Part shown: piece by piece, positions 2,636 to 41,862 of the stretch
Layout: each line of letters starts with the position of its first letter
How positions within the stretch are numbered: the first letter of the stretch is position 1
From: Micromonospora sp. NBC_01699
GTDB lineage: Bacteria > Actinomycetota > Actinomycetes > Mycobacteriales > Micromonosporaceae
DNA length: 64,000 nt
Assembly: GCF_036250065.1 (NCBI RefSeq)
Contig: NZ_CP109199.1
Coordinates: 6,324,001-6,388,000 of the forward strand
Direction of reading: 5' to 3'
The notes under the pieces: generated by a model
Seen by the model: the letters and a program-made list of their open reading frames with translations, nothing else
Database searches by the model: none
What the model was told of the DNA's origin: nothing
Translations under genes and position numbers: made by a program

Positions 2636-2870
2636 GCCCTACCGGTTTCTCCATCCCGCGTGGACTGAAACCGATCGGCGCGCTCGGCGGGCGCTATGGT
2701 CGTCAATCATGGGCGTCGACCGCCGTGCGGTCCGCCGGCCGCCCGGCTGACCCGCCCGCTTCGGTACGACCGCGCTGCTACAGAGCTGATCGGGCTATTC
2801 GTGCTATTCTCCCCCGTCGATATGCCGGACGTCCGGCCAGTGAAACGACCAGCCGCCGGGAGGGCAGGAA

Positions 2871-6092: not shown

Positions 6093-6167
6093 CAGCTGTC
6101 ATGACGCCGGTCACAGCGTCGGCGAACCTGGACATAAGGAAGTTCGTCCACAGGAGGCCCTTCGCCG

Positions 6168-22514: not shown

Positions 22515-22568
22515 CTCCACCTCCGTTGAACTGCCGTAACTCGGCAGAACAAACGTTCCCAGACAGAT

Positions 22569-22608
22569 GTGGGACGACCGTGGGAGCAGAGTGGGACAAG
22601 AGTGGGAC
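22569..22608. promoter_or_regulatory. Four GTGGGA(C/G) heptamers at exact 11-bp spacing
   Basis: The repeats start at 22569, 22580, 22591 and 22602 (GTGGGAC, GTGGGAG, GTGGGAC, GTGGGAC). Direct heptamers with one-helical-turn spacing are the classic binding site of SARP regulators. The array lies between the divergent glycosyltransferase gene and the SARP gene, so it is probably an autoregulatory operator. Confidence 0.75.
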
Positions 22609-22667
22609 AAGATCAGACTCGCAGTTCCGTGCTCGCCCTCAAAGCGCAGGTAGGCCATCATTCATCC

Positions 22668-25463: not shown

Positions 25464-25904
25464 CATTCCATCCGAAGCGCCCGACGTTCTCGACGAGCCG
25501 CCACCAGCGGTTTCGAGGACGTACGGCCGGGTCCACCATCGTCACGGCAGTCAAGGCGTCGAGGGCACCGTCATCACGAGACAGATTGCCCAATATCTAT
25601 GATCACCAATTCGATACAAGATCCACCTTGGGTGTTTCAACAGGCCGGGGGCCAGACACGCAAACAACGCCACCGGCCACGCCAGTCGAATCGACAAAAT
25701 CACCGACCCCGAACCTGCGGCATTTGCCCTCATAAATATAAGTGAGCCCGTTGGTGCACGAAGCGGAAACGAACGCAGCGGAACCCGACTGTCACCCAAC
25801 GGCATGTACCCTGCTTGGACGAACAAAGTTCCACTTCGGACATTTATCGACATCGATTATTTTGCGCGCGAAGCGCTGCCATTGAACGGAACCAAGGAGC
25901 GTTC
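25464..25904. other. 440-bp gap upstream of the defence block
   Basis: No gene is supported on either strand. Its GC content is clearly lower than that of the flanking genes, especially from 25600 to 25890, as expected for a promoter region of an acquired operon. AAGGAG at 25894-25899 is the ribosome site of the kinase-helicase gene. Confidence 0.5.
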
Positions 25905-28900
25905 GTGGAGAATAAGTGGGTGGCGGGCCGGTTCCGCCTCCTGGACGAGATCGGCCACGGCGGTATGGGCGTTGTGTACCGCGCCACCGACGACCGGGAA
26001 ACCGAGGACAGCAAACATCGCCTGGTCGCCGTGAAGCTGATCCTGCCCGACCTCCTGCGAACAAGCGTCGACGCCAGCGAGCGGGCGAGGCGGGTGAAGC
26101 GATTCACGCGCGAAGTACGGATCATGAAAAGGCTCCGGCACCCGAACCTGACCCAGATCATCGCCGGTGACGCCGACATCGAGCAGCCGTACCTCGCCAT
26201 GGAGTTGCTCGACGGAACCACCCTCACGGAGCTACAGAAAAACGGCAAGCAGATCCCGATCAGTTGGATCGCCGCCATCGGCGCGCAGATTGCCGAGGGC
26301 CTGTCCGAGGCGCACGCGACGGACATCATCCATCGCGACCTCAAACCCGACAACGTCATGTTGTTACGCGGCGGCTTGGTCAAGGTTCTCGACTTCGGCA
26401 TCGGCCAGATCATCGGCGACGACGCCACCCGGGTGACCAGGCCGGGCATACCGCCCGGCAGCGACCCGTACATGGCGCCCGAACAGCTACGCTCCGAAAG
26501 CCTGACCCCGGCGGCCGACCTCTTCTCCCTCGGCTGCACGCTGTACATGCTGCTCGTCGGCGCGGTTCCATTCGCCGGAGATCGTACCGAGCTCAAGGAG
26601 AGCCACGACCAGCAAACCGCGCCGCCCATCGGACCGCAACGGGCTGACTCGCCGAGCGATCTGAACCGACTCATCGAGCGGATGCTCGAACGCAAGCCGG
26701 TCGACCGCCCTCCGGATGCGGTCACCATTCGCGACGAGTTGCTGAGGTTCGCCGTCGGCGGGAACCGGCTCGCCGGCTGGGAGGAGTTCGACCCCGTACG
26801 GCAGGTCGCGGCCATGCGGGTCACGGGCCTCGGCCGGGGCGGGGCGACCGACACGGAGTCCGACGTGTCGGCCCGGCCCGCCGGGGCGGGGATGGACGTT
26901 TTCGGCGTACACCGCAGGCTCATCGACGAGTACCGCTCGTTTGCCTGGAACGGCACGATCATCCGGGACGAACGCATCGCCACCTTCGTGGAGGACGATC
27001 TCGACACCAAGTCACAGTGGCCCGACCCGTGGCTGTCGTTGAATCCGTACTTCGCCTCCGGCGGCAGTGTGAGTGAACTTGCCGCCTCCGGAGTGCTCCA
27101 CCCGGAGTGCGCACGGATCTTCCAGGCCGGCAAGACCGAGGGCGGCACGAAATGCGACGGTCGCCCGCTCACCCTGCACCGGCACCAGCGGCAGGCGATC
27201 GACATCGCCAAGACCGGCGCCTCGTACGTGCTCACCACCGGCACCGGCTCAGGCAAGTCGATGGCGTACGTGGTGCCGATCGTGGATCGGGTGCTGCGCG
27301 ACCGTGAACGGGAGGGCGCCAGCAGCCGCAAACGGGTCCGAGCAATCATCGTTTACCCCATGAATGCCCTGGCCAACAGCCAGGTGAAAGAACTCGAAAA
27401 GTACCTGCGCGACGGCTACGGCGAGGGGCATGAGCCGGTCACCTTCGCCCGGTACACGGGTCAGGAAACTCAGCCGCAGCGTAGACAGATCCACGAGAAC
27501 CCGCCGGACATCCTGCTGACCAACTACGTGATGCTGGAGCTGATGCTCACCCGTCCGGACGACCGGCGTTCCCTCATCCGGATGGCAAGAGGGCTGGACT
27601 TCCTCGTCTTCGACGAACTGCACACATACCGTGGTCGGCAGGGCGCCGACGTGGCCCTGCTCATCCGCCGGGTACGCGAGGCGTGTCGGGCGGACCGCGT
27701 CCAGTGTGTCGGCACCTCGGCCACCATCGCCGGCACGGACGGCCCCGATGGCCCCGACCAGCGCGAGGTTGTCGCGCAGATCGCGAGCACGCTCTTCGGT
27801 ACCGAGGTCGGCACGGAGAACGTGATCGGTGAGACGCTGATTCGCGCCACCGGGGAGCCGCCGGCGACAATCTCGGCACAGCGGCTGCGGACGCCGAAGG
27901 CGCCATCCGGGTTCGACGATCTGGTGGACGATCCGCTCGCCCGCTGGATCGAGGCGCGTTTTGGTCTGTTCGAGGGCCCGTCGGGACACCCAATCCGACA
28001 GCGGCCCGCGAAGATCGAGGACGCAGCAGCCGAACTCGCCCGGACGAGCGGTCTCCCCGTGGTCGAGTGCGCCGACGCGATCCGCCGTACGCTGGAAGCC
28101 GGTTCACAGGCGCGGCACCCGGTCACCGGACGGCCCCTGTTCGCCTTCCGCCTGCACCAGTTTCTCTCCAAGGGCGACACCGTCTACAGCACGGTGGAGA
28201 GCAGAGCGGATCGCTACCTGACCCGCGACTACCAGCTCGTCCGGCCCGGACCCGACCGGAAGATCCTGCTGCCGCTGGCGTTCTGCCGGGAGTGCGGACA
28301 GGACTTTCTCACCGTCTGGCGCACCGAGAAGGAGGACGGTCGGATCGTCTACGAGCCGCGTCGGGACACCGTGGCCACCGGTGGACGGACCTGGGACGGC
28401 TACCTCTACGTCGACCCCGACCGGCCCTGGCCGCACAGCCTCGACGAGGCTGTCGCCGAGCGCCGCCTGCCGGACTCGTGGCTGGACAGCGATGGCCACG
28501 GCACGGTACGCGAGGCATACCGGCGGCGGCTGCCCCGGGCCATCACCGTCGACGCGACCGGTGTGGAGGGCCGTGGCGACCTCCGGGCGGCTTTCATCCC
28601 GTCTCCCTTCCTGTTCTGCCCGCACTGCAACGTCAGCTACGAACAGACCAGACGCAGGGACTTCGCCAAACTGGCCACTCTCGGTCAGGAGGGGCGTTCG
28701 TCCGCGACCTCGCTGATCTCCGCTTCCATCGTCCGTTCGCTCCTGGCCGCACCCGCGGACGCACTGCCCGAGAGGGCTCGCAAGCTGCTTACGTTCGTCG
28801 ACAATCGACAGGATGCCTCCCTGCAAGCCGGCCATTTCAACGACTTCGTTCAGATCATCCAGCTACGCGGTGCCCTGTATCAGGCGGTCGCGAAAGCGGG

Positions 28901-31900
28901 CGACGACGGCATCAAGCACGAACAGTTGGCGAACCGGATCACGGAGGCCCTGAACCTGGAACTCGCCGACTACGCCAGCGGCGCGGACCTGCCGCCCTCG
29001 ATGACCCGCAACGCCGCCCAGACCCTGCGCGACGTCATCGCCTTCCGTCTCTACCTCGACCTGGAGCGCGGTTGGCGGGTGACCATGCCCAACCTGGAAC
29101 AGACCGGGCTGGTCACCATCGACTACGCCGACCTGCGGTGGCTGGCCGAGCAACGGACCAGGTGGTCCGGCAAGCTGACCCCGCTGCTCGACGTCGGGCC
29201 CGGCGAGCGGGTCGAGATCATGCGCACGCTGCTCGACGAGATGCGGCGTGCGCTCGCCATCGACGTGAAGCACTTCCACGACGACTTCGACTCGCTCCAG
29301 CGCGCCAGCGAGGAGCGCCTGATCAGTCCCTGGGTCCTCACCAGGGACGACCGCCCCCAGGTCGGTACCGCCTATGCCCAGTCGTCGAAGCCGGGGCTGG
29401 ACCGCTCCGGCCTATTCCTCTCCGGACGAGGCAAGTTCGGCAAGTACCTGCGCCGGGTGCACCTCGCCCACCTGAACCTGTCGATCGCCGATACCCAGGA
29501 GATCATCGAACAGCTCCTTGAGTTGCTGGTCGCGATCGGTCTGGTGAACAAGGTCGGCATGACGGCACCCCAGCGTGCCGGTCGCGCCCGTCGGGTCGCC
29601 CGACCGACCATGACCGGCTACCGCGTCCTGGCCGGCGCCCTGATCTGGCGGGTCGGTACCGGCCGGACCGGTAGCCACGACCCGCTGACCCGCACCTACG
29701 CCAGCGGCGACGGCCCGCGGGTGAACGCGTTCTTCCGCGACCTCTATCGGAAACGGGCGGGTACGTTCGGCGGGCTCACGGCTCTGGAGCACACCGCCCA
29801 GGTGGCCCCGCACGAGCGGGAGCTGCGGGAGCAGGCCTTCCGCGACGCGGAGCTGCGGCTGCTCTACTGCTCACCGACCATGGAACTGGGAGTTGACATC
29901 TCCGAGCTCAACGCGGTCCTCATGCGCAACGTGCCGCCCACGCCGGCCAACTACGCGCAGCGCAGCGGACGGGCGGGGCGGTCCGGGCAGCCCGCACTCG
30001 TGGTCACCTACTGTGCCACCGGCAGCAGCCACGACCAGTACTACTTCCGCCGCTCGGAACGGATGGTGGCGGGAGCGGTCGTACCGCCCCGGCTCGACCT
30101 CGCCAACGAGGATCTCGTCCGATCCCACGTGCAGGCCATCTGGCTCGCCGAGGCCGGGCTCAAGCTCAACCGTGCCATCCCGAGCATCATCGACATCAGC
30201 TACGCCGAGGACGCCAGATATCCCAACCCAGGGCTCGACCTGCTCGACCACATCGAGGCGGCCCTTCGCGACACCACCGCCCGGGACCGAGCGGTGTCGG
30301 CCGCCCGGCGGGTCTTCGGCGGACTGATCGCCGCCTACAGCCGTACGCCGTGGTGGGACGACCGGTGGATCGAGGAGACCGTCGCGACCGCCCCCGAGCG
30401 GTTCGATCTGGCCTTCGAGCGCTGGCGGCTCCTCTTCCGGGCGGCTCTGGTCGATCAGGCCGAGCAGAACCGACGGGTTCTGGACCACACGCTCACCGAG
30501 AAGGACCGCGAGAGCGCCGCGAAGCGCCGCCGTGAGGCCGAGACACAGCTCACCCTGCTCAAGAACGAAAGCGTGGAGAGCAGTTCCGTGCTCTCCGACT
30601 TCAATCCGTACCGGTACCTGGCCAGCGAGGGATTCCTACCCGGGTACTCGTTCCCGCGTCTACCGCTCGCCGCCTATGTCCCGACCAGCGGGCGGCGTGC
30701 CGGCGACGGTGACTATCTGCAACGACCCCGGTTCCTGGCTATCCGCGAGTTCGGGCCGGGTGCGTTGATCTACCACGAGGGAGCCCGCTACCAGGTCACC
30801 CGCATTCAACTGCCGCCGGATCCATCCGGTCACATCGTCACCAGTGAGGCCCGCAGGTGTACGAGTTGTGGATACCACCACGACGTGCGCGACCGGTGGG
30901 AAAAGTGTGAGATGTGCGGCGGCCAGCTGCCCGAGGCAACCCATGGTCTGCTGAAACTGCATACGGTCTACACTGTGCGCCGGGCGCAGATCTCCTCGGA
31001 CGAAGAGGAGCGCCGACGGGCAGGCTTCAATTTGGCCACGTCCTACCGTTTCCACGACCGTGGCATTCGCCCCGGTCGTCAGGACGCCGTGGTCGCGGAC
31101 ACCACGGGCCAGATCGCCACTCTGTCGTACGGCGACTCGGCCACGGTCCGGATCACCAACCTCAGCCGGGTCGGGGCGAAACCGGGCGAGCAAGACGGGT
31201 TCTGGCTCGATCCCGTCGACGGCCGCTGGCTGAACGAACGGGACGCCAGCGAGGCGTCGGGCGACTCCAGCGAGATGCCCCTCGTTGACGCCGACGGCAA
31301 CGAGAAACGCAGCAAGAAGCGCGTCCTGCCCTACGTCGAGGACCGCCGCAACATCCTGGTGCTCCGGCTCGACGAGCCGTTGCCGGAATCGGGCGCCGTC
31401 TCGCTCATGTACGCGCTCGAACGCGGTATCGAGGCCGCCTTCGAGTTGGAGGACTCCGAGCTGAGCAGCGAACTGCTCCGCAAGGAGGGCCCACACGACT
31501 GGATGTTGTTCACCGAGGCCGCCGAGGGCGGGGCCGGTGTGCTGCGACTCACGCAGGCCGAGCCGGGCGCTCTGGCCCGCGCCGCGGTCGTGGCACTCGC
31601 CATTTGTCACTTCAGCCCGGAGGGCGACGACCTCGGCGGTCAACACCCCGACCGTCCCTGTGCCCTGGGCTGCTACGAGTGCCTGCTGACGTACGGCAAC
31701 CAGCCCCACCATGCCCTCATCGATCGTCACCTCGCCCGCGATCTGCTGCTCCGCCTCGCCGCCGGACAGGCACGCACGATCGGCGAACGCGAGTCGCGAG
31801 CAGAGCAGTCGGAGCGGCTGACTGCGCGGTCCGGAAGCATCCTGGAGGCCACGTTGCTCGCCTGGCTCCGGGAGGGTGGCCGGCGTCTGCCGGACGAAGG

Positions 31901-32144
31901 GCGGGTTTTCGTCCACGAGGCATCGGCCCGGCCCGACTTCGTCTACCGGCTGCCCGGCGCCAACGTCGCGGTCTTCGTCGACGGCGAGGACGGTGACCGC
32001 GACAGCGACACTGAGCGCGACGACGAAGCGACGGAGCGGCTGTACAACAAGGGTTGGGATGTCGTCCGGTTCGGTCCGGAGGCGGGCTGGAGCGCCCTCG
32101 CCCAGCAGTACGAGCGCTACTTCGGCTCGGAGCCCGACGGCTGA
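25905..32144 (+). CDS. Giant Ser/Thr kinase - DEAD-like helicase - DUF1998 - nuclease fusion (DrmA/DrmB-like)
   Basis: The protein has 2079 residues. Residues 9-280 are a complete Hanks-type kinase: HGGMGVVYRA, VAVKL (K44), HRDLKPDN (143-150), DFG (163-165) and APE (191-193). Residues 420-1400 are a superfamily 2 helicase with GTGSGKS (446-452), DELH (570-573), TSAT (604-607) and a helicase C part with ELGVDIS and QRSGRAGRSGQ (about 1322-1360). Cysteine pairs (FCRECGQD, FCPHCN, CTSCGY, CEMCGG) and CALGCYECLLTYGNQ (about 1918) define the MrfA/DUF1998 (DrmB-like) part. Residues 1975-2065 (RPDFVY, VAVFVDG, GWDVVRFG) look like a VSR/PD-(D/E)XK nuclease fold. GTG 25905 follows AAGGAG. I infer an antiphage helicase-nuclease whose activity is gated by phosphorylation. 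Confidence 0.88.
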   Translation: MENKWVAGRFRLLDEIGHGGMGVVYRATDDRETEDSKHRLVAVKLILPDLLRTSVDASERARRVKRFTREVRIMKRLRHPNLTQIIAGDADIEQPYLAMELLDGTTLTELQKNGKQIPISWIAAIGAQIAEGLSEAHATDIIHRDLKPDNVMLLRGGLVKVLDFGIGQIIGDDATRVTRPGIPPGSDPYMAPEQLRSESLTPAADLFSLGCTLYMLLVGAVPFAGDRTELKESHDQQTAPPIGPQRADSPSDLNRLIERMLERKPVDRPPDAVTIRDELLRFAVGGNRLAGWEEFDPVRQVAAMRVTGLGRGGATDTESDVSARPAGAGMDVFGVHRRLIDEYRSFAWNGTIIRDERIATFVEDDLDTKSQWPDPWLSLNPYFASGGSVSELAASGVLHPECARIFQAGKTEGGTKCDGRPLTLHRHQRQAIDIAKTGASYVLTTGTGSGKSMAYVVPIVDRVLRDREREGASSRKRVRAIIVYPMNALANSQVKELEKYLRDGYGEGHEPVTFARYTGQETQPQRRQIHENPPDILLTNYVMLELMLTRPDDRRSLIRMARGLDFLVFDELHTYRGRQGADVALLIRRVREACRADRVQCVGTSATIAGTDGPDGPDQREVVAQIASTLFGTEVGTENVIGETLIRATGEPPATISAQRLRTPKAPSGFDDLVDDPLARWIEARFGLFEGPSGHPIRQRPAKIEDAAAELARTSGLPVVECADAIRRTLEAGSQARHPVTGRPLFAFRLHQFLSKGDTVYSTVESRADRYLTRDYQLVRPGPDRKILLPLAFCRECGQDFLTVWRTEKEDGRIVYEPRRDTVATGGRTWDGYLYVDPDRPWPHSLDEAVAERRLPDSWLDSDGHGTVREAYRRRLPRAITVDATGVEGRGDLRAAFIPSPFLFCPHCNVSYEQTRRRDFAKLATLGQEGRSSATSLISASIVRSLLAAPADALPERARKLLTFVDNRQDASLQAGHFNDFVQIIQLRGALYQAVAKAGDDGIKHEQLANRITEALNLELADYASGADLPPSMTRNAAQTLRDVIAFRLYLDLERGWRVTMPNLEQTGLVTIDYADLRWLAEQRTRWSGKLTPLLDVGPGERVEIMRTLLDEMRRALAIDVKHFHDDFDSLQRASEERLISPWVLTRDDRPQVGTAYAQSSKPGLDRSGLFLSGRGKFGKYLRRVHLAHLNLSIADTQEIIEQLLELLVAIGLVNKVGMTAPQRAGRARRVARPTMTGYRVLAGALIWRVGTGRTGSHDPLTRTYASGDGPRVNAFFRDLYRKRAGTFGGLTALEHTAQVAPHERELREQAFRDAELRLLYCSPTMELGVDISELNAVLMRNVPPTPANYAQRSGRAGRSGQPALVVTYCATGSSHDQYYFRRSERMVAGAVVPPRLDLANEDLVRSHVQAIWLAEAGLKLNRAIPSIIDISYAEDARYPNPGLDLLDHIEAALRDTTARDRAVSAARRVFGGLIAAYSRTPWWDDRWIEETVATAPERFDLAFERWRLLFRAALVDQAEQNRRVLDHTLTEKDRESAAKRRREAETQLTLLKNESVESSSVLSDFNPYRYLASEGFLPGYSFPRLPLAAYVPTSGRRAGDGDYLQRPRFLAIREFGPGALIYHEGARYQVTRIQLPPDPSGHIVTSEARRCTSCGYHHDVRDRWEKCEMCGGQLPEATHGLLKLHTVYTVRRAQISSDEEERRRAGFNLATSYRFHDRGIRPGRQDAVVADTTGQIATLSYGDSATVRITNLSRVGAKPGEQDGFWLDPVDGRWLNERDASEASGDSSEMPLVDADGNEKRSKKRVLPYVEDRRNILVLRLDEPLPESGAVSLMYALERGIEAAFELEDSELSSELLRKEGPHDWMLFTEAAEGGAGVLRLTQAEPGALARAAVVALAICHFSPEGDDLGGQHPDRPCALGCYECLLTYGNQPHHALIDRHLARDLLLRLAAGQARTIGERESRAEQSERLTARSGSILEATLLAWLREGGRRLPDEGRVFVHEASARPDFVYRLPGANVAVFVDGEDGDRDSDTERDDEATERLYNKGWDVVRFGPEAGWSALAQQYERYFGSEPDG

Positions 32145-32197
32145 CGGCGGCGGCGACCAGACAACCCTCATCGCCGCCGACCGGAGAGACGTCCTTG

Positions 32198-35173
32198 ATG
32201 ATCACCCCTTACGCCCCGGGTTCCCTGGTGTCCGCCCGCGACCGCGACTGGGTCGTGCTGCCGCAGAGTTCCGCCGACATGCTCGTCCTACGTCCGCTCG
32301 GCGGAGCCGACGACGAGATCGCTGCCGTCTTCCCAGCCACCGAGCAGGTACGCGGCGCCCAGTTCGCACCGCCGTCCGCCACCGATCTCGGCGATGCGCG
32401 GGCCGCCGGGCTGCTCCGCTCGGCCCTGCGCATCGGCTTCCGCTCCGGCGCCGGACCGTTTCGGTCACTTGCCGGGATCGCCGTCGAGCCCCGGGCGTAC
32501 CAGCTGGTACCGCTCATGATGGCGTTGCGACAGGCCACGGTCCGCATCCTGATCTCCGACGATGTCGGGATCGGCAAGACCGTCGAGGCCGGCCTCATCG
32601 CGGCCGAACTGCTCGCCCAGGGCAGTGCCCGAGCACTCGCCGTGCTCTGCTCGCCCGCCCTGACCGAACAGTGGCAGGCTGAGCTGCGTACCAAGTTCGG
32701 CATCGATGCCGAACTGGTTCTGTCCAGCACGGTCGCCAAGCTGGAGCGGAGCCTGGACCTGGGCCAGTCACTCTTCGACCGACACCCCCACGTGATCGTC
32801 TCCACCGATTTCATCAAGTCCGCCCGGCACCGCGACGACTTCGTCCGGCACTGCCCCGACCTGGTCATCGTCGACGAGGCACACACCTGCGTCGCGCCCG
32901 ACGACGGCGGCTCGCTCCAGAGTCAGCTCAGGTACGAGTTGCTGCAACGTGTCGCGGCCGACCCGACCCGGCACCTGCTCCTGGTGACGGCGACCCCGCA
33001 CAGCGGCAACGAGAGCGCCTTTCGTAACCTGCTCGGACTCGTCAAGCCCGAACTCGCCACGGTCGAGCTGGAGAACGATGCGGGTCGCCGGCTGCTCGCC
33101 CGCCATTTCGTGCACCGTAGACGGGCCGATGTCCGCAGGTACCTGACAACCAGCGACGGCCTCCACGACGACAACCTCGCGGAGGAGACGGTCTTCCCCT
33201 CGGACCGGCAGTTCAAGGACGAGACGTACCAGCTCTCCCCCGTTTACCGGGCGCTTCTCGACGACGCCATCGAATACACCCGCGAACGCGTCACCACGGC
33301 CGGTCAACGCAGTGGACGCGAAGGCCGGATCGCCTGGTGGTCGGCGATCGCGCTGCTTCGTTCGCTGGTTTCCTCGCCCCGCGCCGCCGCCCAGACACTG
33401 CGCACCCGCTCCGCGGCTGCGGCGGCCGGCAGTGCCGACGAGGCAGACCGGCTCGGTGCCTCTCTCGTGAGGGATGCAGCAGACGGCGACGCGCTGGAGG
33501 GGCTCGATGTCGCCCCGGGTGCCCGGACCGACGAGCCGACGACGAACGGCGGGGCGGCGAGGGCGCCGGACAGGGCGGAGAATCGACTCGGCGAGTTGGC
33601 GGATCGTGCGGCCCGGCTAGAGGGAACCACGGAGGACTGGAAGCTCGCGGCTCTGGTCACGCACGTCAAGGCCCTGCTCCGGGACGGTTATCACCCAATT
33701 GTCTTCTGCCGCTACATCCCGACCGCCGAGTACGTCGCCCAACACCTGGACGGCAACCTCGGCAAGCGCACGGTGGTGCGGGCCGTCACCGGGACTCTCT
33801 CGCCGCACCAACGCCTGGAGCGGATCGAGGAACTCGCCGAGATCGCCGGTGACGATCCACGCGCCCGACGCGTCCTGATCGCCACCGACTGCCTGTCCGA
33901 GGGCGTCAACCTGCAACACCACTTCGACGCCGTCGTCCACTACGACCTCGCTTGGAACCCGACCCGGCACGACCAGCGCGAAGGACGGGTCGACCGGTAC
34001 GGGCAGCGGCGCGACGTCGTCCGGGTCATCACCCTCTACGGCAGCGACAACGGCATCGACGGCAAGATCCTCGACGTCCTCATCCGAAAGCACCGCCAGA
34101 TCCGGAAGGACCTCGGCGTCTCCGTCTCCGTACCCGACGCGACCTCCATCGGCGTCACCGACGCGATCGTGGAATGGCTTCTGATCCACGGTCGGAAGGA
34201 CAGACAGGGCAGTCTGCTTGACCTGAAACAGGTCGGCGCCGTGGACCAGCACGCTCCACATCCGGGAATGGACTGGAACTCGGCCACGGAGCGAGAACGG
34301 AAGTCCCGGTCCCGTTTCGCCCAACGCTCGATCCGCCCGGAGCAGGTCGCCCGAGAGGTGGCCGCGATCCGCGACACGCTGGGCCGGGCATCCGAGGTGC
34401 ACGGCTTCGTCCGCCAGGCCCTCCATGCCCTCGACGGAGTCCTCCGTGATGTGGGGGGTCCTGGGGATTTCAGCGCGGACGTGAGCGGGACCCCGGCCGG
34501 ACTCCGCGACGCCCTCACCTCGGTCCTCGGTAGCCACGCCGCCGAGTCGGGCCGGCCCGTCGTCTTCCGCACCACGGCGGCGGTCGCACGAGGCGAGGCC
34601 GCGCTGGTGCGTACCGATCCGGCGGTCGTGGCGCTCGCGAGCTACGTACTCGATGCCGCCCTGGACGGCCGGACCGCCCAATCACGTCCCGCCCGGCGGT
34701 GCGGGGTCATCCGTACCCGGGCCGTCCGCGACCGGGTCACACTGCTGCTGGTTCGCTACCGTCTGCACCTCACCCTGCCATCGCGTAACGGTGTGCAGGA
34801 CCTCGTCGCCGAGGACGCGAGGCTGCTGGCGTTCGAGGGAGCAGCCGCCAACGCGCGGTGGCTAACCACCGGGGAAGCCGTCGGGCTGCTGGACACGACA
34901 ACCGCCGACGAGAACACCGATCCCATGTTCGGCGAGCGGACCGTGGGCCGGATCCTCGACGGCCTGCCCTCGGTCGCGGCGCATCTCGACGGGTACGGCG
35001 ACGAGCTCGCCGCCGAACTCCTCGCCTCGCATCGGCGGGTGCGCTATGCCTCCGGCGAGATCGTGCGCGGCCTCGCCGTCACCGCACAGAAACCCGCCGA
35101 CATCCTCGGCGTCTACGTCTACCTACCGGTGTCCGACGCAGCCTTCGGCGCACCCGCCGGAGGTGCCGCCTGA
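32198..35173 (+). CDS. drmD: SNF2-like helicase, DrmD-like (DISARM)
   Basis: The 991-residue protein is a Swi2/Snf2 ATPase: SDDVGIGKTVEAGLIAAEL near residue 120 (Walker A), VIVDEAHTCV near 225 (DEAH box), LLVTATPHSGN near 262, and a helicase C half with FCRYIPTAEYV, IATDCLSEGVNLQ and HDQREGRVDRYGQ. The N-terminal PGSLVSARDRDWVVLPQSS and the long C-terminal extension match DrmD of class 1 DISARM. The ATG has GGAGAG nine bases upstream. Its stop overlaps the start of the methyltransferase by one base (TGATG). Translocation along DNA to find foreign or unmodified sequence is the expected role. Confidence 0.88.
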   Translation: MITPYAPGSLVSARDRDWVVLPQSSADMLVLRPLGGADDEIAAVFPATEQVRGAQFAPPSATDLGDARAAGLLRSALRIGFRSGAGPFRSLAGIAVEPRAYQLVPLMMALRQATVRILISDDVGIGKTVEAGLIAAELLAQGSARALAVLCSPALTEQWQAELRTKFGIDAELVLSSTVAKLERSLDLGQSLFDRHPHVIVSTDFIKSARHRDDFVRHCPDLVIVDEAHTCVAPDDGGSLQSQLRYELLQRVAADPTRHLLLVTATPHSGNESAFRNLLGLVKPELATVELENDAGRRLLARHFVHRRRADVRRYLTTSDGLHDDNLAEETVFPSDRQFKDETYQLSPVYRALLDDAIEYTRERVTTAGQRSGREGRIAWWSAIALLRSLVSSPRAAAQTLRTRSAAAAAGSADEADRLGASLVRDAADGDALEGLDVAPGARTDEPTTNGGAARAPDRAENRLGELADRAARLEGTTEDWKLAALVTHVKALLRDGYHPIVFCRYIPTAEYVAQHLDGNLGKRTVVRAVTGTLSPHQRLERIEELAEIAGDDPRARRVLIATDCLSEGVNLQHHFDAVVHYDLAWNPTRHDQREGRVDRYGQRRDVVRVITLYGSDNGIDGKILDVLIRKHRQIRKDLGVSVSVPDATSIGVTDAIVEWLLIHGRKDRQGSLLDLKQVGAVDQHAPHPGMDWNSATERERKSRSRFAQRSIRPEQVAREVAAIRDTLGRASEVHGFVRQALHALDGVLRDVGGPGDFSADVSGTPAGLRDALTSVLGSHAAESGRPVVFRTTAAVARGEAALVRTDPAVVALASYVLDAALDGRTAQSRPARRCGVIRTRAVRDRVTLLLVRYRLHLTLPSRNGVQDLVAEDARLLAFEGAAANARWLTTGEAVGLLDTTTADENTDPMFGERTVGRILDGLPSVAAHLDGYGDELAAELLASHRRVRYASGEIVRGLAVTAQKPADILGVYVYLPVSDAAFGAPAGGAA

Positions 35174-38100
35174 TGTCCGCCATCGCGCGCAGCCAGGTCT
35201 TCACCACCGTCCACACGATCGGCGGCCTCCTACCGACCGACATGCTGGTCCGCATCAGCGACGGGCGGGACGTCGACGGCTGTACGCCCGTCGACTACCA
35301 CGTCATCGGCGCACACTCGGTACGCGACGACGCCGAACGGCACTGGGACTATCTGCGGTCCACCTGGGCGGAGCTCCGAAACCGCCTTCCCCGTCTGAGA
35401 GAGGCCGAGACACCAACCGATCCGACCGGCCTCGCGATCGCGCAATGGCTCAAGCCCTTGTTCGGGGAGCTCGGCTTCGGCCAGCTCACGACCATCAGCG
35501 CGTCGGGCATCGCCGCCGACGACAACCGGAAAATGTTCGCCATCAGCCACCGCTGGAACCACGTGCCGATCCATTTGATCCCCTGGAATGCCGCGCTTGA
35601 CCGGCGGCCCGCAAACGCCAAGGGCGTACCACCGCAGTCCCTCTTGCAGGAATGCCTAAACCGCTGCCGGGGACACCTGTGGGCGGTCCTCACCAACGGC
35701 CGCCAACTACGCCTTCTGCGCGACTCCAGTGCGCTCGCCACCGCGTCGTACATCGAATTCGACCTGGAAGCGATCTTCGACGGCGAACTTTTCAGCGAGT
35801 TCGTCCTGCTCTACCGGCTGCTGCACGTCTCCCGTTTCGAGGTGGCCGATGGCGCGGCACCGTCCACCTGCTGGTTAGAGAAATGGCGCACCGAGGCGAT
35901 CTCCTCGGGTGTGCGTGCGCTCGACCACCACCGGCAAACGGTGAAGCAGGCTATCACCATGCTAGGTTCCGGCTTTCTCAGGCACCCGGCGAACACGGTT
36001 CTTCGCGAGAATCTCGACGTCGATGCGTTTCACACGGCACTGCTCCGCCTCGTGTACCGCCTGATCTTCCTCTTCGTCATCGAGGAGCGGGACGTACTGC
36101 ACCCGCCGGGAACCACCGAGACGGTCCGGCGGCGCTACGCGGAATATTTCTCCACTTCCCGGCTCCGTCGCAGGGCAGACCGCCGCGGCACCGCGCACAC
36201 GGATATGTATCAGGCTCTACGGATTGTCCTCGACGCACTCGGCAACGAGAACGGACACCCGGAATTGGGCCTACCAGGACTCGGTGGCCTCTTCGACGAC
36301 AGCGAGGCGGATGCCCCGCTGCGTGGTCTGTCCCTGGCCAACATCGATCTCCTGGCGGCGGTGCGCCAGCTCTCCCGCGTCCGCGACAGGGGCTCGACTC
36401 GCTGGCGGTTGGTGGACTACCGCAACATGGGATCGGAGGAGATGGGTTCGATCTACGAGTCGCTGCTCGAACTCATACCCAAGCACTCCCCCAGCGACAA
36501 CAGCTTCGAGCTGGTCGAACGCCTCGGCAACAATCGCAAGAAGACCGGGTCGTACTACACACCGAGTTCGTTGATCGAGCGGCTACTCGACTCCACCCTC
36601 GACCGCGTGATCGACGACTTCGAGAAGCGCGGCGAGATACGCGCGTCAGCGTCAGGACAACCGGAATCCAGAGAGATCGTCGCCGAGGAACTGCTGTCGA
36701 TCACCGTGTGCGACCCGGCCTGCGGTTCCGGCAACTTCTTGGTCGCCGCCGCCCGCCGGATCGCGAAGCGGGTCGCCGCCGTACGGGAACGCAACCCGGA
36801 GCCGACGCTCGGTGCCGTCCGGCAGGCCCTGCACGAGGTGATTGCCCGCTGTATCTACGGCGTAGACCTCAACCCGATGGCGGTCGAACTAGCAAAGGTT
36901 TCACTCTGGCTCGAAGCCATGGAGCCAGGAAAACCACTCGGCTTCCTGGACGCGCACCTCAAGCATGGCAACACCCTGATCGGGGCCACGCCGGCCCGGA
37001 TGCGGGACGGCATCCCCAGCATGGCCTTCAAACCGATCGAAGATGACGACCCCGTGTACGCCAGACTCCTGGAGAAGCAGAACGAGGCAGAGCGGAAGGG
37101 CCAGGACACCCTATTCGACCTGTACACCGATCCGAAGGTCGTCAACACCGCCTTCGCGGCAAGCCTGCGCCGCATCGCCGACGCTCCCGTCGACACTCTC
37201 ACCGACGTCCGCAGGCAAGCCGCCGCGTACCAGGATTGGCAGAAATCCTTCACGTACGCCCTGGCGAAGCACGTAGCCGATGCTTGGTGTGCGGCGTTCG
37301 TGTGGCATAAGCGCAAGGACTTCCCGTCGCCGGTGACCCACGCGGTCTTCCGCACCCTCCAGGTTCCAACCTCCGAGGCCGCGTCGCAGGCAACCCACAC
37401 CGAGATCGTACGGCTGCGGGAGCTGCACCGATTCTTCCACTGGCACCTGGAGTTCCCGTATATCTTTTCCGTACCCGAGGATGCGTCCGCCCCGGAAGTC
37501 GATGCGGCGACCGGATGGGCGGGAGGTTTCTCCTACGTTGTCGCCAACCCACCCTGGGACAAGGTTGACTTCGAGGACAAGAAGTACTTCAGCGCAGTAG
37601 ACCAATCGATCACCGAGATCGCGGGACTGGCCCGACGGGACCGCATAGCCCGGTGGATCAAGGAAAATCCGCAGGCGGGTGCGGATTATCGAGCAGAACG
37701 CAGAAGAATCAAATCGACATTCCAATTCGCCCGAGGATCCGGCCTCTACCCACTTTGCATCAAGGGCCTAACAGTCAAGGGCGTGAATTCACTCCAATTC
37801 GATCAACTCTTCACCGAACACCTCATCTCCCTCGCCGCACCAAACGGTCATCTGGGATTCGTCATTCCGACAAACATTGCGTGGGCGGCCGGATCACAGC
37901 ACCTCTTCGGTGACATAACCAGACGTGGAGCCCTCGCCTCACTGTACGACTTCGAGAACCGAAATTCCATATTTCTCGGCATACATTCCAGCCTTAAATT
38001 CTGCCTCCTATCACTGGTTGGCCGAGGCTTAACCGAACCAAGCACCGACCTCGCATTTTACCTCCTTGACCCACACAACCTCGATGACAACGGAAAAATA

Positions 38101-39858
38101 TTTCAACTGGCCCCGGAGGAGATACAGCTATTGAATCCAACTTCGGGCGCTCTCCCCATCTTTCGTTCCCGCCGCGACGTTGACTTGACGATCGCCATAT
38201 ATCGACGCACGCCCATTATTGATAACTCATGGGAAATAACATTCAAGTATCACTTCCGCATGACAGATGACTCCGACATCTTCCACACCCGAGAGGAGCT
38301 CGAACTAACAGGCTGGGAGGCAGACGGAAACGGGTTCGGTCGGGACCAGGAGTACATGGTTCCGCTCTACGAAGGCAAGATGGCCCACCTATTCGACCAC
38401 CGATGGAGCTCCTACCCCAGCTACAACATCAAGGATCACAGACTTTTGACCACAATCGAGAAGCAGGATCCTTCTATAACCGCTCAGCCGCGGTACTGGG
38501 TGCCCGAGAGGGCACTTGATGCAACCGGGGAAGACAAGAACCGGGACGCAATCGCACGCCTGGAGGCCCTCGACTGGAACTATGAGTGGCTCTGCGGGTG
38601 GCGCGACATAGCTCGTGCGACCGACGAACGGACCGCAATTCCCGCATTCTTGCCAGTCGCCGCCGTAGGACATACGTTTCCACTCATGTTTCCCCGAGCG
38701 AAGCCGACCCTCATTGCCGCACTTGTCGCCGCACAGAGCTCCCTTGTATTCGACTTTGTGAGCCGCCAGAAGATAGGCGGCACTCACGTGTCTCTAATGA
38801 CATGGAGGCAGCTTCCAGTTCCCACGCCCACGATGCTGGAGCGCCACGTAACCTTCATCAGGCCACGAGTACTCGAACTCGTCTACACCGCGTACGACAT
38901 GACCCCGCTCGCCCGTGACCTCGATGACGGCGGTCCACCGTTCCGATGGGACGAGGATCGACGCGCCCGACTCCGAGCTGAACTCGACGCCTACTTCTTC
39001 CACCTGTACGGGATCTCGCGCGCAGACACGGACTACATTTTGGAGACCTTCCAGTCCGACTCGGGTGGTGGCCTTAAAAACAAGGAGATCGCAAAGTACG
39101 GAACCTATCGCACGAAGGATCTCGTGCTCGCCGAGTACGACCGTATGCTCGTGGCCGGCGCAAGTCTCGACACTCCGCTCATCGACGGCGAGAACTACGG
39201 CTCCCCGCTCATTCCGATTCCAGGCTTTGGACTACGACACGACCCGCACCGACTTGCCCCCCCCCCCCCCCCGCGATTTCTCGTTCCGATCATGGGGAGA
39301 TCTGATGGGGTGGTACATCCTGAGCGAATCGTGGTCACGTTGCTTGGCCTCATCAGCGGCTATCAACCCCACTCAGCGTTTTGGCTGATCGCCCTATGTG
39401 GCTTGCCGCTCAAGACAGCCGCCAGATGCCGCTGGACCGACGTAAAACCCGACACGGGCACCGGGTCGTCGGCAATCCCGCCTACTGAGGTCTACCTCCC
39501 CAACGCCCGCGAGCCCTGCTCGGCCTGGAAATGTTCCGCCACACCCAGGAAAGCGTCACCGTCTACCACGAGACCCAGGACTGCCGGCACCCGGTCATGG
39601 GGCCAGCAGCACACCCACCCCAAGCCCGGAGCCGCAGTCGAAAGCCTCATCGCCGAGGCCCGACTCACCGACCGAAGAGTCGAACTCTTCTTCAAAATTC
39701 ACAAAGATGTGGCCTCGACTGGAGCCGACGCCACATCTCGATGCCGGGCAGGTACGTTTACTACCAAGCGAATCCAGCTGGATGACCGGCCGCCCGTTGT
39801 CAGGTCTCGGACGCCGGATCAGCAGCCTCATCCGCAACGCGGCGCCGGATCTCCTTGA
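35173..39858 (+). CDS. N6-adenine DNA methyltransferase, DrmMI/PglX/Eco57I-like, with 3' poly-C tract
   Basis: As read, the frame is 1561 residues. The N-terminal target/regulatory part (1-440) precedes KKTGSYYTPSSLIERLL, motif I DPACGSGNFLVAAARR (about 512), YGVDLNPMAVELAKVSLW and the catalytic NPPW (about 790) of gamma-class adenine methyltransferases. The similarity ends around residue 1360 at a proline run. At 39257-39272 sixteen C residues occur. The frame then continues for about 195 codons with no recognisable sequence to 39858, whereas a +1 change would stop at 39303-39305 and a +2 (or -1) change at about 39388. The true end is therefore probably near 39305. Methylation would mark self DNA in a DISARM- or Pgl-like system. 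It is translationally coupled to the drmD-like gene. Confidence 0.85.
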   Translation: MSAIARSQVFTTVHTIGGLLPTDMLVRISDGRDVDGCTPVDYHVIGAHSVRDDAERHWDYLRSTWAELRNRLPRLREAETPTDPTGLAIAQWLKPLFGELGFGQLTTISASGIAADDNRKMFAISHRWNHVPIHLIPWNAALDRRPANAKGVPPQSLLQECLNRCRGHLWAVLTNGRQLRLLRDSSALATASYIEFDLEAIFDGELFSEFVLLYRLLHVSRFEVADGAAPSTCWLEKWRTEAISSGVRALDHHRQTVKQAITMLGSGFLRHPANTVLRENLDVDAFHTALLRLVYRLIFLFVIEERDVLHPPGTTETVRRRYAEYFSTSRLRRRADRRGTAHTDMYQALRIVLDALGNENGHPELGLPGLGGLFDDSEADAPLRGLSLANIDLLAAVRQLSRVRDRGSTRWRLVDYRNMGSEEMGSIYESLLELIPKHSPSDNSFELVERLGNNRKKTGSYYTPSSLIERLLDSTLDRVIDDFEKRGEIRASASGQPESREIVAEELLSITVCDPACGSGNFLVAAARRIAKRVAAVRERNPEPTLGAVRQALHEVIARCIYGVDLNPMAVELAKVSLWLEAMEPGKPLGFLDAHLKHGNTLIGATPARMRDGIPSMAFKPIEDDDPVYARLLEKQNEAERKGQDTLFDLYTDPKVVNTAFAASLRRIADAPVDTLTDVRRQAAAYQDWQKSFTYALAKHVADAWCAAFVWHKRKDFPSPVTHAVFRTLQVPTSEAASQATHTEIVRLRELHRFFHWHLEFPYIFSVPEDASAPEVDAATGWAGGFSYVVANPPWDKVDFEDKKYFSAVDQSITEIAGLARRDRIARWIKENPQAGADYRAERRRIKSTFQFARGSGLYPLCIKGLTVKGVNSLQFDQLFTEHLISLAAPNGHLGFVIPTNIAWAAGSQHLFGDITRRGALASLYDFENRNSIFLGIHSSLKFCLLSLVGRGLTEPSTDLAFYLLDPHNLDDNGKIFQLAPEEIQLLNPTSGALPIFRSRRDVDLTIAIYRRTPIIDNSWEITFKYHFRMTDDSDIFHTREELELTGWEADGNGFGRDQEYMVPLYEGKMAHLFDHRWSSYPSYNIKDHRLLTTIEKQDPSITAQPRYWVPERALDATGEDKNRDAIARLEALDWNYEWLCGWRDIARATDERTAIPAFLPVAAVGHTFPLMFPRAKPTLIAALVAAQSSLVFDFVSRQKIGGTHVSLMTWRQLPVPTPTMLERHVTFIRPRVLELVYTAYDMTPLARDLDDGGPPFRWDEDRRARLRAELDAYFFHLYGISRADTDYILETFQSDSGGGLKNKEIAKYGTYRTKDLVLAEYDRMLVAGASLDTPLIDGENYGSPLIPIPGFGLRHDPHRLAPPPPPRFLVPIMGRSDGVVHPERIVVTLLGLISGYQPHSAFWLIALCGLPLKTAARCRWTDVKPDTGTGSSAIPPTEVYLPNAREPCSAWKCSATPRKASPSTTRPRTAGTRSWGQQHTHPKPGAAVESLIAEARLTDRRVELFFKIHKDVASTGADATSRCRAGTFTTKRIQLDDRPPVVRSRTPDQQPHPQRGAGSP
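39257..39272 (+). repeat. Homopolymer of 16 C in the methyltransferase gene
   Basis: The tract follows CACCGACTTG and precedes GCGATTTC. Its length changes the frame of the C-terminus. Poly-G/C runs in phage-growth-limitation methylase pglX are known to cause phase variation. An assembly error in the run cannot be excluded. Confidence 0.9.
39306..39799. other. Low-information region between the methyltransferase and the RAMA nuclease
   Basis: The methyltransferase frame runs through here only with 16 C. None of the six frames looks like a conserved protein; short frames such as the one beginning MFRHTQESVTVYHE (39531) have no supporting ribosome site. It may be a decayed gene or a shared 3' spacer between convergent genes. 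Confidence 0.45.
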
Positions 39859-40939
39859 TAGTCACCGTGTCACCGGCATGCGCGTCTTCGGTCCGCCAGA
39901 AGTCCATGCCGTCGGTGGCGGTAACTGACGCGGGGGCGTCCGACCCGCGTACCGCAAGCTTGACGGCAGTGCCGGCCGCCGAAAGCGAGGAATGCGTCTG
40001 GCCGCCATAGCGAACCTGACCATCACGGAGCAACTCGGCCCGATACGTGCTGCCCAGATAGTCGCCGTAAAGCATGGTGCCCGGCCGCAGCCGCCCTGCC
40101 GCGATCAGGTCGGGCACCCTCAGTCTGCGTTCACCGGCGCTGACCCGCCGCCTTTGGACCGACCGTTGCCTGGGCAACGTCGGCGTCGGCTTACCAGACC
40201 GGCTCGGCGGCGGCGTTGTGAGCGGCTCGGCCCGAGCGACCGGCTGATCAGGGGAGAACGACGTGACCGCAGTCGGGAAGTCGAAGGTCGCCCTCGCGCG
40301 TACCAGGCTAGAACGGATTGCGTCGCGGCTCAGCTTCGTCAAGCGTCCATCCAGCAGCGCCACGAGTTCGACGGCAGGCTCGTCACCGGCGAAGAGGCTC
40401 GTCAACTCGGCGTGCACCTGCCGGTCGACGAAGTAGCCCTTCCACATCTCCTCGATGCGGTTCTCCCGCATATTGTCCTTGCTGAGCAGGCACAGAAGAT
40501 CCATCGCGCCGCCAGGGTCGGAGTCGATCCGGACTGCCCGGAAGAGCTTCTGCTCGACAGGAACCGGAGCGTGCGCGTTGTACACCCGCCACTCCGCGCC
40601 ATCGGTGAGTACCACCCATTCAACGCCGGCAACCGTGGCGTAGCTGATTGTCTGATTCGCCCATCGGGGGTCGTCCAGGTTCTCGCCGAGTCCCTTCGCT
40701 TCGATGAACAGGCGCGGGGTGCGGAGCAAGAGCAGAGCGTAGTCAACCGGGTTGTCGGAGGTACGGCGCCGGTACTCGCGGTGCACCTCGTCCGGGTCGT
40801 AGACATCCCACCCGAGCGCGTTGATCATTGGCTCGATCAGACTGGCCTTGGTGTTCTGCTCGCCGAGCCGCCGTGGATGCCGGCGAAATCGGTCCAGTCG
40901 TTCGACGCTCTGCTTGATCGCGTCACGCAGTTCCTGCAC
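39800..40939 (-). CDS. HsdR-N-type nuclease with C-terminal RAMA domain
   Basis: The protein has 379 residues. Residues 20-170 match the type I restriction HsdR N-terminal nuclease fold: NTKASLIEPMINALGWDV, then D66 in NPVDYALLL and E80-x-K82 in FIEAKGLGE, the PD-(D/E)XK signature. A linker (210-265) leads to a C-terminal RAMA domain (about 285-360, AGRLRPGTMLYGDYLGSTYRAELL), a module tied to adenine-methylation systems. The GTG at 40939 has GGAGG six bases upstream, a better start than the ATG at 41017. It converges on the methyltransferase gene. I infer a modification-dependent or modification-inhibited nuclease belonging to the same defence block. Confidence 0.82.
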   Translation of the reverse strand: MQELRDAIKQSVERLDRFRRHPRRLGEQNTKASLIEPMINALGWDVYDPDEVHREYRRRTSDNPVDYALLLLRTPRLFIEAKGLGENLDDPRWANQTISYATVAGVEWVVLTDGAEWRVYNAHAPVPVEQKLFRAVRIDSDPGGAMDLLCLLSKDNMRENRIEEMWKGYFVDRQVHAELTSLFAGDEPAVELVALLDGRLTKLSRDAIRSSLVRARATFDFPTAVTSFSPDQPVARAEPLTTPPPSRSGKPTPTLPRQRSVQRRRVSAGERRLRVPDLIAAGRLRPGTMLYGDYLGSTYRAELLRDGQVRYGGQTHSSLSAAGTAVKLAVRGSDAPASVTATDGMDFWRTEDAHAGDTVTIKEIRRRVADEAADPASET

Positions 40940-41181
40940 GCCCCGCCTCCAGCTTCCGGCTGCACAGATCGTAGTACCGCCGTTTCCATGGTCGGCGATG
41001 CCATCGGCGACGAACATCGGCCGTGCGTCGACAGCCGCGACTCCGTCGAGGCGGTCTCGTCTCTGATGTCACCAGGGCTGCTCGGGCTCTCTCGAACACA
41101 TCGACGAGGCGAGGTTCCCAGGTTCGTAGCCAACGAAGCCCAGCAGGCAGCTCTTTCGGATTCGACCGCGCCATCCGAGGT

Positions 41182-41479
41182 TCAGGCTGCGGCGTCCCGT
41201 GGCTCGAAACTGACGTACAGGCTCACATCCAGCGCCGCTGCCAACCGCTCCAGCACCGGCAAGGTCGGACGGTCCCGCCCGCTTCGAACCGGGCAACCGC
41301 CGACAGGGTCATTCCGAAGCCTGCGCGAGCTGCGACTGAGTCCAACCCCGACGCTCACCAAGCTCCCGGACCGCACGGCCGAGCTCAAACGCCAGCCGCG
41401 CCGCGTCGTACGCCTCCGCAGCGCCGGGCTCAGCCATGCGCCGGTCGCGCATCGCGGCCCAGTCTGCCCGTTCACCCAT
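41182..41479 (-). pseudogene. HigA-like XRE antitoxin with two frameshifts
   Basis: The first frame reads AARLAFELGRAVRELGERRG and WTQSQLAQASE and then stops. A shifted frame continues MTLSAVARFEAGGT and a second shift gives PTLPVLERLAAALD. Together they make a normal XRE antitoxin. The shifts lie near 41313-41316 (a missing G) and 41265-41272 (a missing C). The ATG at 41479 is three bases from the toxin stop, the usual toxin-antitoxin order. The gene is broken as read, unless these are sequencing errors. Confidence 0.75.
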
Positions 41480-41482
41480 GGC

Positions 41483-41786
41483 CTAGGCCCCCTCTTCGAG
41501 TCGGTGCGCCTCGTCAACACACCGAGCCAACGCCGACGCGCCCGGTCGACCTCTCGCTCGTCGCGCATGCGCGTCTTGTGGAACACCGTCAGCAAGACGA
41601 TCCGTTTGTCGGACGCGATCCGGTAGGTGACTCTCACCGCCTGCCGCTCCAGGTAGAACCGCAACTCACGCAGCTTGCCGTCAAGCTGCTTCGTGTACGG
41701 CTCACCCAACAGCGGACCCTGGTCCGCCAACAGATCGACATAGAACGCCGTCCTGGCGAACAGTGCCGTCGGCAGGTTCTCCAGCC
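41483..41786 (-). pseudogene. HigB/RelE-like toxin fragment, 5'-truncated and frameshifted
   Basis: The frame reads LENLPTALFARTAFYVDLLA, then GPLLGEPYTKQLDGKLRELR, RVTYRIASDKRIVLLTVF and HKTRMRDEREVDRARR, typical of the phage-derived Gp49/HigB toxin family. A missing base near 41530-41536 moves the last codons (ALARCVDEAHRLEEGA) out of frame. The first dozen or so residues are absent because the gene begins at the 3' end of the tRNA at 41789-41862. It appears to have been cut by recombination at the tRNA. Confidence 0.75.
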
Positions 41787-41788
41787 GG

Positions 41789-41862
41789 TGGGGCGGGCGG
41801 GACTCGAACCCGCGACCGAGGGATTATGAGTCCCCTGCTCTAACCTGCTGAGCTACCGCCCC
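41789..41862 (-). tRNA. tRNA-Met (CAT), or lysidine-type tRNA-Ile2
   Basis: On the minus strand: acceptor GGGGCGG/CCGCCCC, D stem GCTC/GAGC, anticodon stem GGGGA/TCCCT with loop CTCATAA (anticodon CAT), T stem GCGGG/CCCGC with loop TTCGAGT, discriminator A. G1-C72 rules out initiator tRNA. Elongator Met and Ile2 cannot be separated with certainty. The toxin fragment abuts its 3' end. Confidence 0.92.

Follow-up and report, generated by a model that had tools for sequence, protein, structure and literature searches.

A Ser/Thr kinase fused to the helicase–nuclease protein of a likely ARMADA Type I operon in Micromonospora

Which system is formed by three closely spaced genes whose first product joins a Ser/Thr kinase to a helicase and a nuclease-like domain, and what might the kinase be doing there? 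This question is raised by a locus of Micromonospora sp. NBC_01699 that lies in the 64,000-nucleotide stretch referred to here as the window (positions 6,324,001–6,388,000 of the single-contig 8.28-Mb genome). Its plus strand encodes, in this order, a YprA-family helicase, an SNF2/RapA-type helicase, and a PglX/Eco57I-family methylase (coordinates in Table 1). The initial annotation had taken these genes for a new hybrid of the DISARM and Pgl systems. Our analyses lead to a different assignment: the three-gene set is very probably the core of ARMADA Type I, which was described in 2025 in a preprint (Bell et al., bioRxiv 2025.09.15.676423, PMC12458937). The supposed novelty of the architecture thus does not hold for the core, and the real novelty is the kinase.

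The operon and its probable ARMADA Type I core

According to the main text of the preprint, Type I operons generally have the order YprA homologue, BrxHII-like helicase, PglX-like methylase, with the canopy domains (OB-CON-DUF1998) fused to the helicase and a Vsr-type nuclease at its C-terminus (PMC12458937). The window shows the same succession, with a BrxHII/RapA-like helicase in second and a PglX-like methylase in third place, and we use the Type I label because this order and the fused DUF1998 agree with that description, as the C-terminal nuclease-like domain may do too; abundance in Actinomycetota is shared as well, and the PknB-type kinase at the N-terminus of ArmC, the YprA-family protein, is the difference. 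Genes 2 and 3 overlap by one base (TGATG, with the ATG of gene 3 at 35173), as had been noted initially, and the initial domain reading, a kinase–helicase–DUF1998–nuclease fusion followed by an SNF2 helicase and an Eco57I methylase, agrees with the Pfam matches, those of the nuclease being mostly below threshold.

Relatives were collected in a scan of genome contigs (203), of which the best 80 were retained as named loci. Both partner genes follow the helicase gene in 77 of these 80 loci, and the remaining three (L013, L014, L062) reach contig ends, which argues that the three-gene association is not due to chance. The kinase is present in 77 of the 80 loci as well; two others (L056, L070) are cut at a contig end, and L082 has no kinase. 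Flank clustering gave no constant fourth gene, the commonest cluster being a downstream family that we labelled helix-turn-helix-like by eye (31 loci; the downstream flank exceeds 1.5 kb in 71 loci).

The open frame of gene 1 spans 25815–32144 (+), and most of the 80 relatives align from residues 1–6 of the start at 25905. Its Pfam matches are Pkinase (4e-42), DEAD (1e-26), Helicase_C (3.8e-12), and MZB, the zinc domain of the DUF1998 region (26.6 bits vs. a cut-off of 24.2). Four sets of cysteines, assigned to zinc modules by position, are conserved, and the window therefore fits the Type I cysteine pattern: 794/797 and 905/908 in the zinc module of the second RecA-like domain, 1652/1655/1668/1671 in the OB region, and the DUF1998 set 1901, 1919, 1923, and 1926, which is kept in at least 95% of 77 rows. 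The best match of the C-terminal model is MrfA (6znp, E 1.1e-5, at a mean predicted local distance difference test score, pLDDT, of only 66.8), and together with the MZB match and the cysteines this fold points to a fused OB-CON-DUF1998 canopy with an extra zinc module in the OB region. The model also has a helical extension ahead of the canopy region, as in the description in the main text (PMC12458937). Residues 617–735, which follow the first RecA-like domain, are mostly helical and well modelled; kinases filled the 50 fold-search matches shown, and a BrxA-like fold was not matched among them. The C-terminal nuclease-like domain lies below the Pfam cut-offs in the window (MTES_1575, E 0.051; DUF559, 0.11). 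However, DUF559, MTES_1575, or Vsr matched in all ten proteins compared (the window and nine relatives), above the cut-off in two, and the ARPD and FVDG stretch is conserved; a Vsr fold was not among the 50 Foldseek matches shown for the C-terminal model.

The motifs of the three proteins are those of ATPases (TGTGSGK and DELH in gene 1, GIGKT and DEAH in gene 2) and of an adenine methylase (DPACGSGNF at 36712 and NPPW at 37546 in gene 3, which matches Eco57I at 1.5e-14). The main text of the preprint likewise takes up the NPPW and Walker motifs (PMC12458937). The ArmA-like product of gene 2 scores 1,562 bits on the PADLOC profile PDLC02853 ("DpdE") over nearly the whole profile length, yet only 179 bits (cut-off 500) on the NCBIfam model of DpdE, and a Pfam scan of 17 window proteins revealed no 7-deazaguanine genes. 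From these matches, PDLC02853 seems to be a differently named profile of ARMADA ArmA proteins, and automated Dpd calls in actinobacteria may be ARMADA.

The composite DISARM/Pgl reading, with the convergent HsdR-N/RAMA protein as its nuclease, has its basis in domains shared with DrmD and DrmMI and, weakly, with PglW/PglX. A DISARM-like flavour of the locus is indeed supported: it has relatives of the DrmD-like helicase, the DrmMI-like methylase, and the DrmA/DrmB-like domains of DISARM class 1, and the proposal that DrmA- and DrmB-like parts are joined in one protein proved correct, this being the rule in ARMADA Type I according to the main text (PMC12458937). In DISARM class 1, however, DrmA and DrmB are separate genes accompanied by DrmC, whereas here one protein carries its own nuclease domain, and the SNF2 protein reaches only 314 bits on the NCBIfam DrmD model (cut-off 610). 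Pgl/BREX-2 likewise combines a Hanks kinase with a PglX-type methylase in one system (PMC4365076, in the part cited here), but in the window the kinase is joined to a YprA helicase and reaches 51.6 bits on the PglW model (cut-off 990), the methylase reaches 47.6 bits on PglX (cut-off 400), and no PglZ, PglY, or PglW scored above model cut-offs among the proteins scanned; neither PglZ nor PLD (DrmC) was matched among the 17 window proteins. The nuclease assigned to this composite fares no better, as neither the flanks of these 80 named loci (E 1e-10) nor the ARMADA loci searched (E 1e-8) yielded an HsdR-N/RAMA homologue, so that of the predicted co-occurrence of four genes only that of the three operon genes holds. 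With ARMADA fitting both order and architecture, the composite reading is largely refuted by the co-occurrence data, and we consider it extremely improbable. Druantia was also considered, since DruE models match the helicase (329 bits), but the partner genes match DpdE/DrmD and DrmMI/type IIG models best, and no DruH was found among the best 25 of 43 to 69 matches for the three long proteins.

Origin and spread of the kinase

The model of the kinase is PknB-like (target TM-score 0.90 to 5u94), and its catalytic residues are intact. In all 88 aligned kinase domains, the window included, K44, E70, H143-R144-D145, K147, N150, D163-F164-G165, T178, P192, and E193 are invariant, T178 being the activation-loop threonine. 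The linker that follows is poorly conserved (mean majority-residue share of 0.34 at residues 301–330) and modelled with low confidence (pLDDT below 50 at 308–330). We found no description of a kinase–ArmC fusion in the literature searched, and the word "kinase" has no occurrence in the main text of PMC12458937, the supplements of which were not covered, so that absence in print is not established.

In a midpoint-rooted FastTree tree of 115 helicase parts, a single clade of 92 rows contains every ArmC row that bears a kinase; incomplete helicases (L062, which has a kinase, L102, L139, L141, L142, and L143) and duplicates of the window (L004, L088) were left out. The kinase label requires three changes on this tree, which can be accounted for as a single gain, the loss in L082, and a frame break in L093, and judged from these sequences the kinase–ArmC fusion is of a single origin on the helicase tree. 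The frame break concerns genome G036 (L093/L148), the sister row of the window: it does have the kinase frame, but this and the frame of the helicase fall out of register at a 26-C tract. Clade-specific phospho-acceptor sites showed no clear excess: of 630 columns that do not vary within the kinase clade, 39 are specific to it, four of them S or T, and S or T make up 49 of the 630.

Among 150 genomes of the same family, 15 loci have a near-full-length Type I helicase (split or partial copies as in G001, G025, G124, and others are not counted); ten are kinase-fused, one is out of register, and four lack the kinase. In the phylum sample, 22 of 396 genomes match at E ≤ 1e-200, with the kinase only in the window genome and G172. 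Because the kinase occurs in ten of 15 family loci but in only two genomes of the phylum sample, the fusion looks like a single Type I branch inside the class to which the window's genome belongs. For nine Type I loci lacking the kinase, wider flanks were searched at E 1e-8, and no kinase was found nearby (L118, L119, L120, L122, L153, L155, L156, L158, L159).

This distribution also bears on the alternative that we are dealing with a housekeeping set, in which an MrfA-like DNA-repair helicase would be under a DNA-damage kinase and have no part in phage defence. The canopy model does match MrfA, a repair helicase according to what the main text of the preprint states for its branch (PMC12458937), but the patchy spread across the phylum, the occurrence of relatives on plasmids (72 records), defence neighbours such as DISARM drmA/drmB, and the coupling to a methylase make this alternative very unlikely. 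The anti-phage role assumed initially is supported as likely. The neighbours just mentioned are those of L118 on the Nocardioides plasmid pNOCA01, where a kinase-less ARMADA I lies between annotated DISARM drmA/drmB and an AAA ATPase/McrC pair. As a separate observation, the best ArmB-family match in L152 (G068) stands upstream of the Type I kinase–helicase gene (2277–6287), and tblastn gives two pieces in this locus.

In the actinomycetes sampled, a kinase often also accompanies ARMADA Type II, which has the same three core families but the order ArmA-ArmB-ArmC-ArmD, with a GajB-like fourth protein; at the window operon, the place of a GajB-like ArmD as fourth gene is taken by the convergent HSDR_N/RAMA gene. 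Two further ARMADA II-like sets (ArmA, methylase, YprA helicase, GajB-like UvrD helicase) are present in the window genome, one of them with a kinase gene just before ArmA. This set lies at about 5,405,383–5,428,700 (L006, L161), the Ser/Thr kinase being its first gene, and about 6 kb with EcsC-family and GmrSD_N (PF03235) genes separate its methylase from its YprA helicase. The other operon (about 5,052,164–5,068,488; L005, L160) has no upstream kinase; a partial Pkinase match is located nearby on the opposite strand (5,071,358–5,071,732).

A same-strand kinase gene stands directly upstream of ArmA in 25 of 38 Type II loci (22 of 30 in the family, three of eight from the phylum search); the loci are the best scorers to the ArmA of the kinase-bearing operon, so this share is biased towards the query's branch and no unbiased rate. 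The search listed 37 ArmA-II matches, 30 of which were examined as loci, and two more of the 37 (G003 and the second operon of the window genome) were added through a further search. On a quick ArmA tree, the 25 loci with and the 13 without kinase split cleanly, and the distance from the kinase stop to the ArmA start ranges from −4 to 283 bases in the 21 loci with a start found, with a 4-base overlap in six. Since the kinase has been kept in this place through 25 diverged operons, in view of only 18 Pkinase matches above the cut-off in the 8.28 Mb of the window genome, it is not a chance neighbour. In a quick tree of 61 kinases, on which long branches were flagged, the 25 Type II kinases form their own clade on a long branch, and the Type I kinases are nearer to the other kinases of the window genome than the Type II kinases are. 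On this tree the Type II kinase, a separate gene, belongs to another lineage than the Type I kinase, and the most economical interpretation is that kinases were recruited at least twice.

The kinase as a possible gate, and the poly-C tracts

By analogy with PglW, the kinase is probably a regulator, a gate of the ARMADA complex. The part of PMC4365076 concerned with PglW reports that its kinase lysine is required for Pgl resistance, and the authors think that PglW signals by phosphorylation. In the mechanism we propose, the methylase ArmB would mark or scan DNA sites, the RapA-like translocase ArmA and the helicase–nuclease ArmC would attack DNA judged foreign, and the kinase, held on a flexible linker, would gate this attack by phosphorylating itself and ArmC, ArmA, or ArmB. 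The gate would probably release the complex upon infection and otherwise keep it quiet, as proposed for PglW in Pgl. We infer DNA restriction by the window locus, as well as the targets of phosphorylation and the direction of the switch.

The kinase could instead be a second-line effector that, once restriction has failed or been blocked, would phosphorylate proteins of the host and halt its growth, a backup role proposed for the Ser/Thr kinases fused to DndF and in PglW (PMC10853773 and PMC12839542, in the parts cited). However, the fusion to ArmC in Type I and the position directly upstream of ArmA in Type II suggest a target inside the complex, and ARMADA II was reported to be non-abortive, though for a kinase-less system (PMC12458937, main text); we regard the effector role as rather unlikely. 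The same source reports that ARMADA II protects E. coli from phages, that the tested system consists of four proteins, that all four genes and most of the tested changes of ATPase and methylase motifs matter, and that the defence is direct.

Several observations weigh against the kinase as a gate of ARMADA or against a simple history of the fusion. The ARMADA tested in the preprint was a Type II system in E. coli, described in the main text without a kinase (PMC12458937), and 20 of the 22 matching phylum genomes lack the kinase in the fetched frame, although two of these 20 are cut before the helicase start. As kinase-less Type I is common and L082 lost the kinase within the clade, the ARMADA core does not depend on it. 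The window kinase is unusually divergent, at 51–54% to five other Type I kinases that are 65–72% alike among themselves (eight pairs computed). The Type I kinases also do not form one clade on the kinase tree (two changes, with the early rows L096, L097, and L099 apart), and the kinase domain may therefore have been replaced within Type I.

The regulatory reading might be extended by homopolymers. The window has a 16-C tract at the end of conservation of the methylase, and behind it the frame continues to 39858 for 195 codons without a counterpart in any locus fetched, most relatives stopping near residue 1,340–1,390 of the aligned protein. Depending on which of the three phases is read, the tail after the tract has 195, 38, or 10 residues. 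In the sister locus of G036, the 26-C tract lies in the kinase–helicase linker. Runs of at least 14 C/G occur genome-wide at two sites each in the window genome and in G036, at one site in G010, and at none in G130 and G092. The window genome and G036 each have one of their two sites inside the ARMADA operon; the remaining three sites of this set look intergenic or unclear by open-reading-frame reading. A G/C run of at least nine was found in the matched operon of only one (L148) of the 96 relative loci scanned, and seven more downstream stretches from loci of the family are free of long G/C runs. Phase variation through a homopolymer would be a further likeness to Pgl, where it involves a G tract in pglX (PMC4365076, in the part cited).

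Phase variation of the operon through poly-C tracts in the window's sub-lineage is thus a possibility to which we give somewhat less than an even chance. The tracts might as well be assembly errors or products of neutral slippage that have no regulatory role, an explanation of this part only and one for which we see an even chance: homopolymer lengths are often misread, so that length errors in the assemblies are possible, in the window the tract comes only after the conserved portion of the methylase, and the pattern concerns two genomes and was noticed after the fact. On the other side stands the rarity of such runs, as there are only two sites in each of the two genomes with one in the operon in both, and the longest G/C runs in the 1.95 Mb of the 80 named loci are three of nine bases, none within the operon. 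Taken together, we tentatively suggest that actinobacterial ARMADA is phospho-switched by two separately captured kinase lineages, one fused to ArmC and one encoded by the first gene of Type II operons, and that in the window's sub-lineage the operon is additionally phase-variable via poly-C. What this joint reading adds, with the same reserve, is that the tracts of the sister loci would act in different genes, in G036 at the joint between kinase and helicase.

Neighbouring genes and implications

Table 1. Features of the operon and neighbouring genes (positions in the window)
Feature	Position	Strand	Basis or remark
ArmC-like YprA-family helicase with N-terminal Ser/Thr kinase and C-terminal PD-(D/E)xK (Vsr/DUF559-like) nuclease domain	25905..32144	+	2,079 amino acids
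PknB-like kinase domain	25938..26711	+	Pfam; P-loop, VAVK lysine, HRD, DFG, and APE all present
Kinase–helicase linker, poorly conserved, low model confidence	26805..26894	+	Alignment and predicted model
First RecA-like domain (DEAD), TGTGSGK and DELH motifs	27180..27731	+	Pfam, motif reading
Second RecA-like domain (Helicase_C match)	29772..29987	+	Pfam
MZB/DUF1998 zinc domain	31404..31685	+	Pfam, conserved Cys, MrfA model match
C-terminal nuclease-like domain (ARPD...FVDG)	31797..32141	+	Mostly sub-threshold DUF559/MTES_1575/Vsr matches; pLDDT mostly 70–90
ArmA-like SNF2/RapA (BrxHII-like) helicase, 991 amino acids	32198..35173	+	Profile matches; GIGKT and DEAH motifs
ArmB-like PglX/Eco57I-family adenine methylase	35173..39858	+	Profile matches; conserved part ends near 39250
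16-C tract within methylase frame, at end of conservation	39257..39272	+	Motif/run scan
Neighbour, not part: HSDR_N + RAMA protein, convergent	39800..41017	-	Pfam
Neighbour, not part: SARP/AfsR-type BTAD-NB-ARC-TPR regulator	22569..25463	+	Divergent to 21345-22661 (-)

Two neighbours were considered as parts of the system and rejected. The convergent HSDR_N + RAMA protein (RAMA 1.6e-13; HSDR_N 29.8 bits vs. 25.1) is absent from the ARMADA loci searched, and its relatives, present in five of the 150 family genomes including its own, do not lie beside relatives of this operon. It is possibly a small modification-related nuclease, and the copy in G064 shows two in-frame TAG codons. The second candidate is the SARP regulator. 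AfsR is a known kinase substrate, but the divergent pair of the regulator and its partner P0006, which is weakly Epimerase_2-like (below the cut-off), recurs in family genomes as a unit of its own and without Type I ARMADA nearby. A SARP match stands beside P0006 in 17 of 20 P0006 loci, the window and G036 included, and in the 18 other P0006 loci a Type I match is far off if there is one at all (only G001 has one, elsewhere). Among the ARMADA loci searched, a close SARP is found only in the window and G036 (48%), and L155 has a distant one (30%). Elsewhere in the window, an overlapping pair at 14021–15370 and 15367–17355 (+) encodes a PNP_UDP_1 phosphorylase-family protein and a 662-residue protein that has no Pfam match, and a Gp49-like (PF05973) protein at 41182–41730 (−), beside tRNA-Met (41787–41862), is possibly half of a toxin–antitoxin pair.

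The kinase touches on the issue of how ARMADA tells self from foreign DNA and avoids harm to the host. That a conserved kinase with intact catalytic residues was acquired more than once hints at a control step in ARMADA, and if the gate proposed here is real, defences built on YprA would receive a general control input from the kinase, in parallel to PglW in Pgl. This would tie ARMADA to Pgl and DndF, where kinases also join defence complexes, and it would suggest that phosphorylation is a recurrent way to restrain helicase–nuclease machines in actinobacteria. Should the poly-C tracts prove to be real switches, they would add a second, population-level control of the ARMADA operon.

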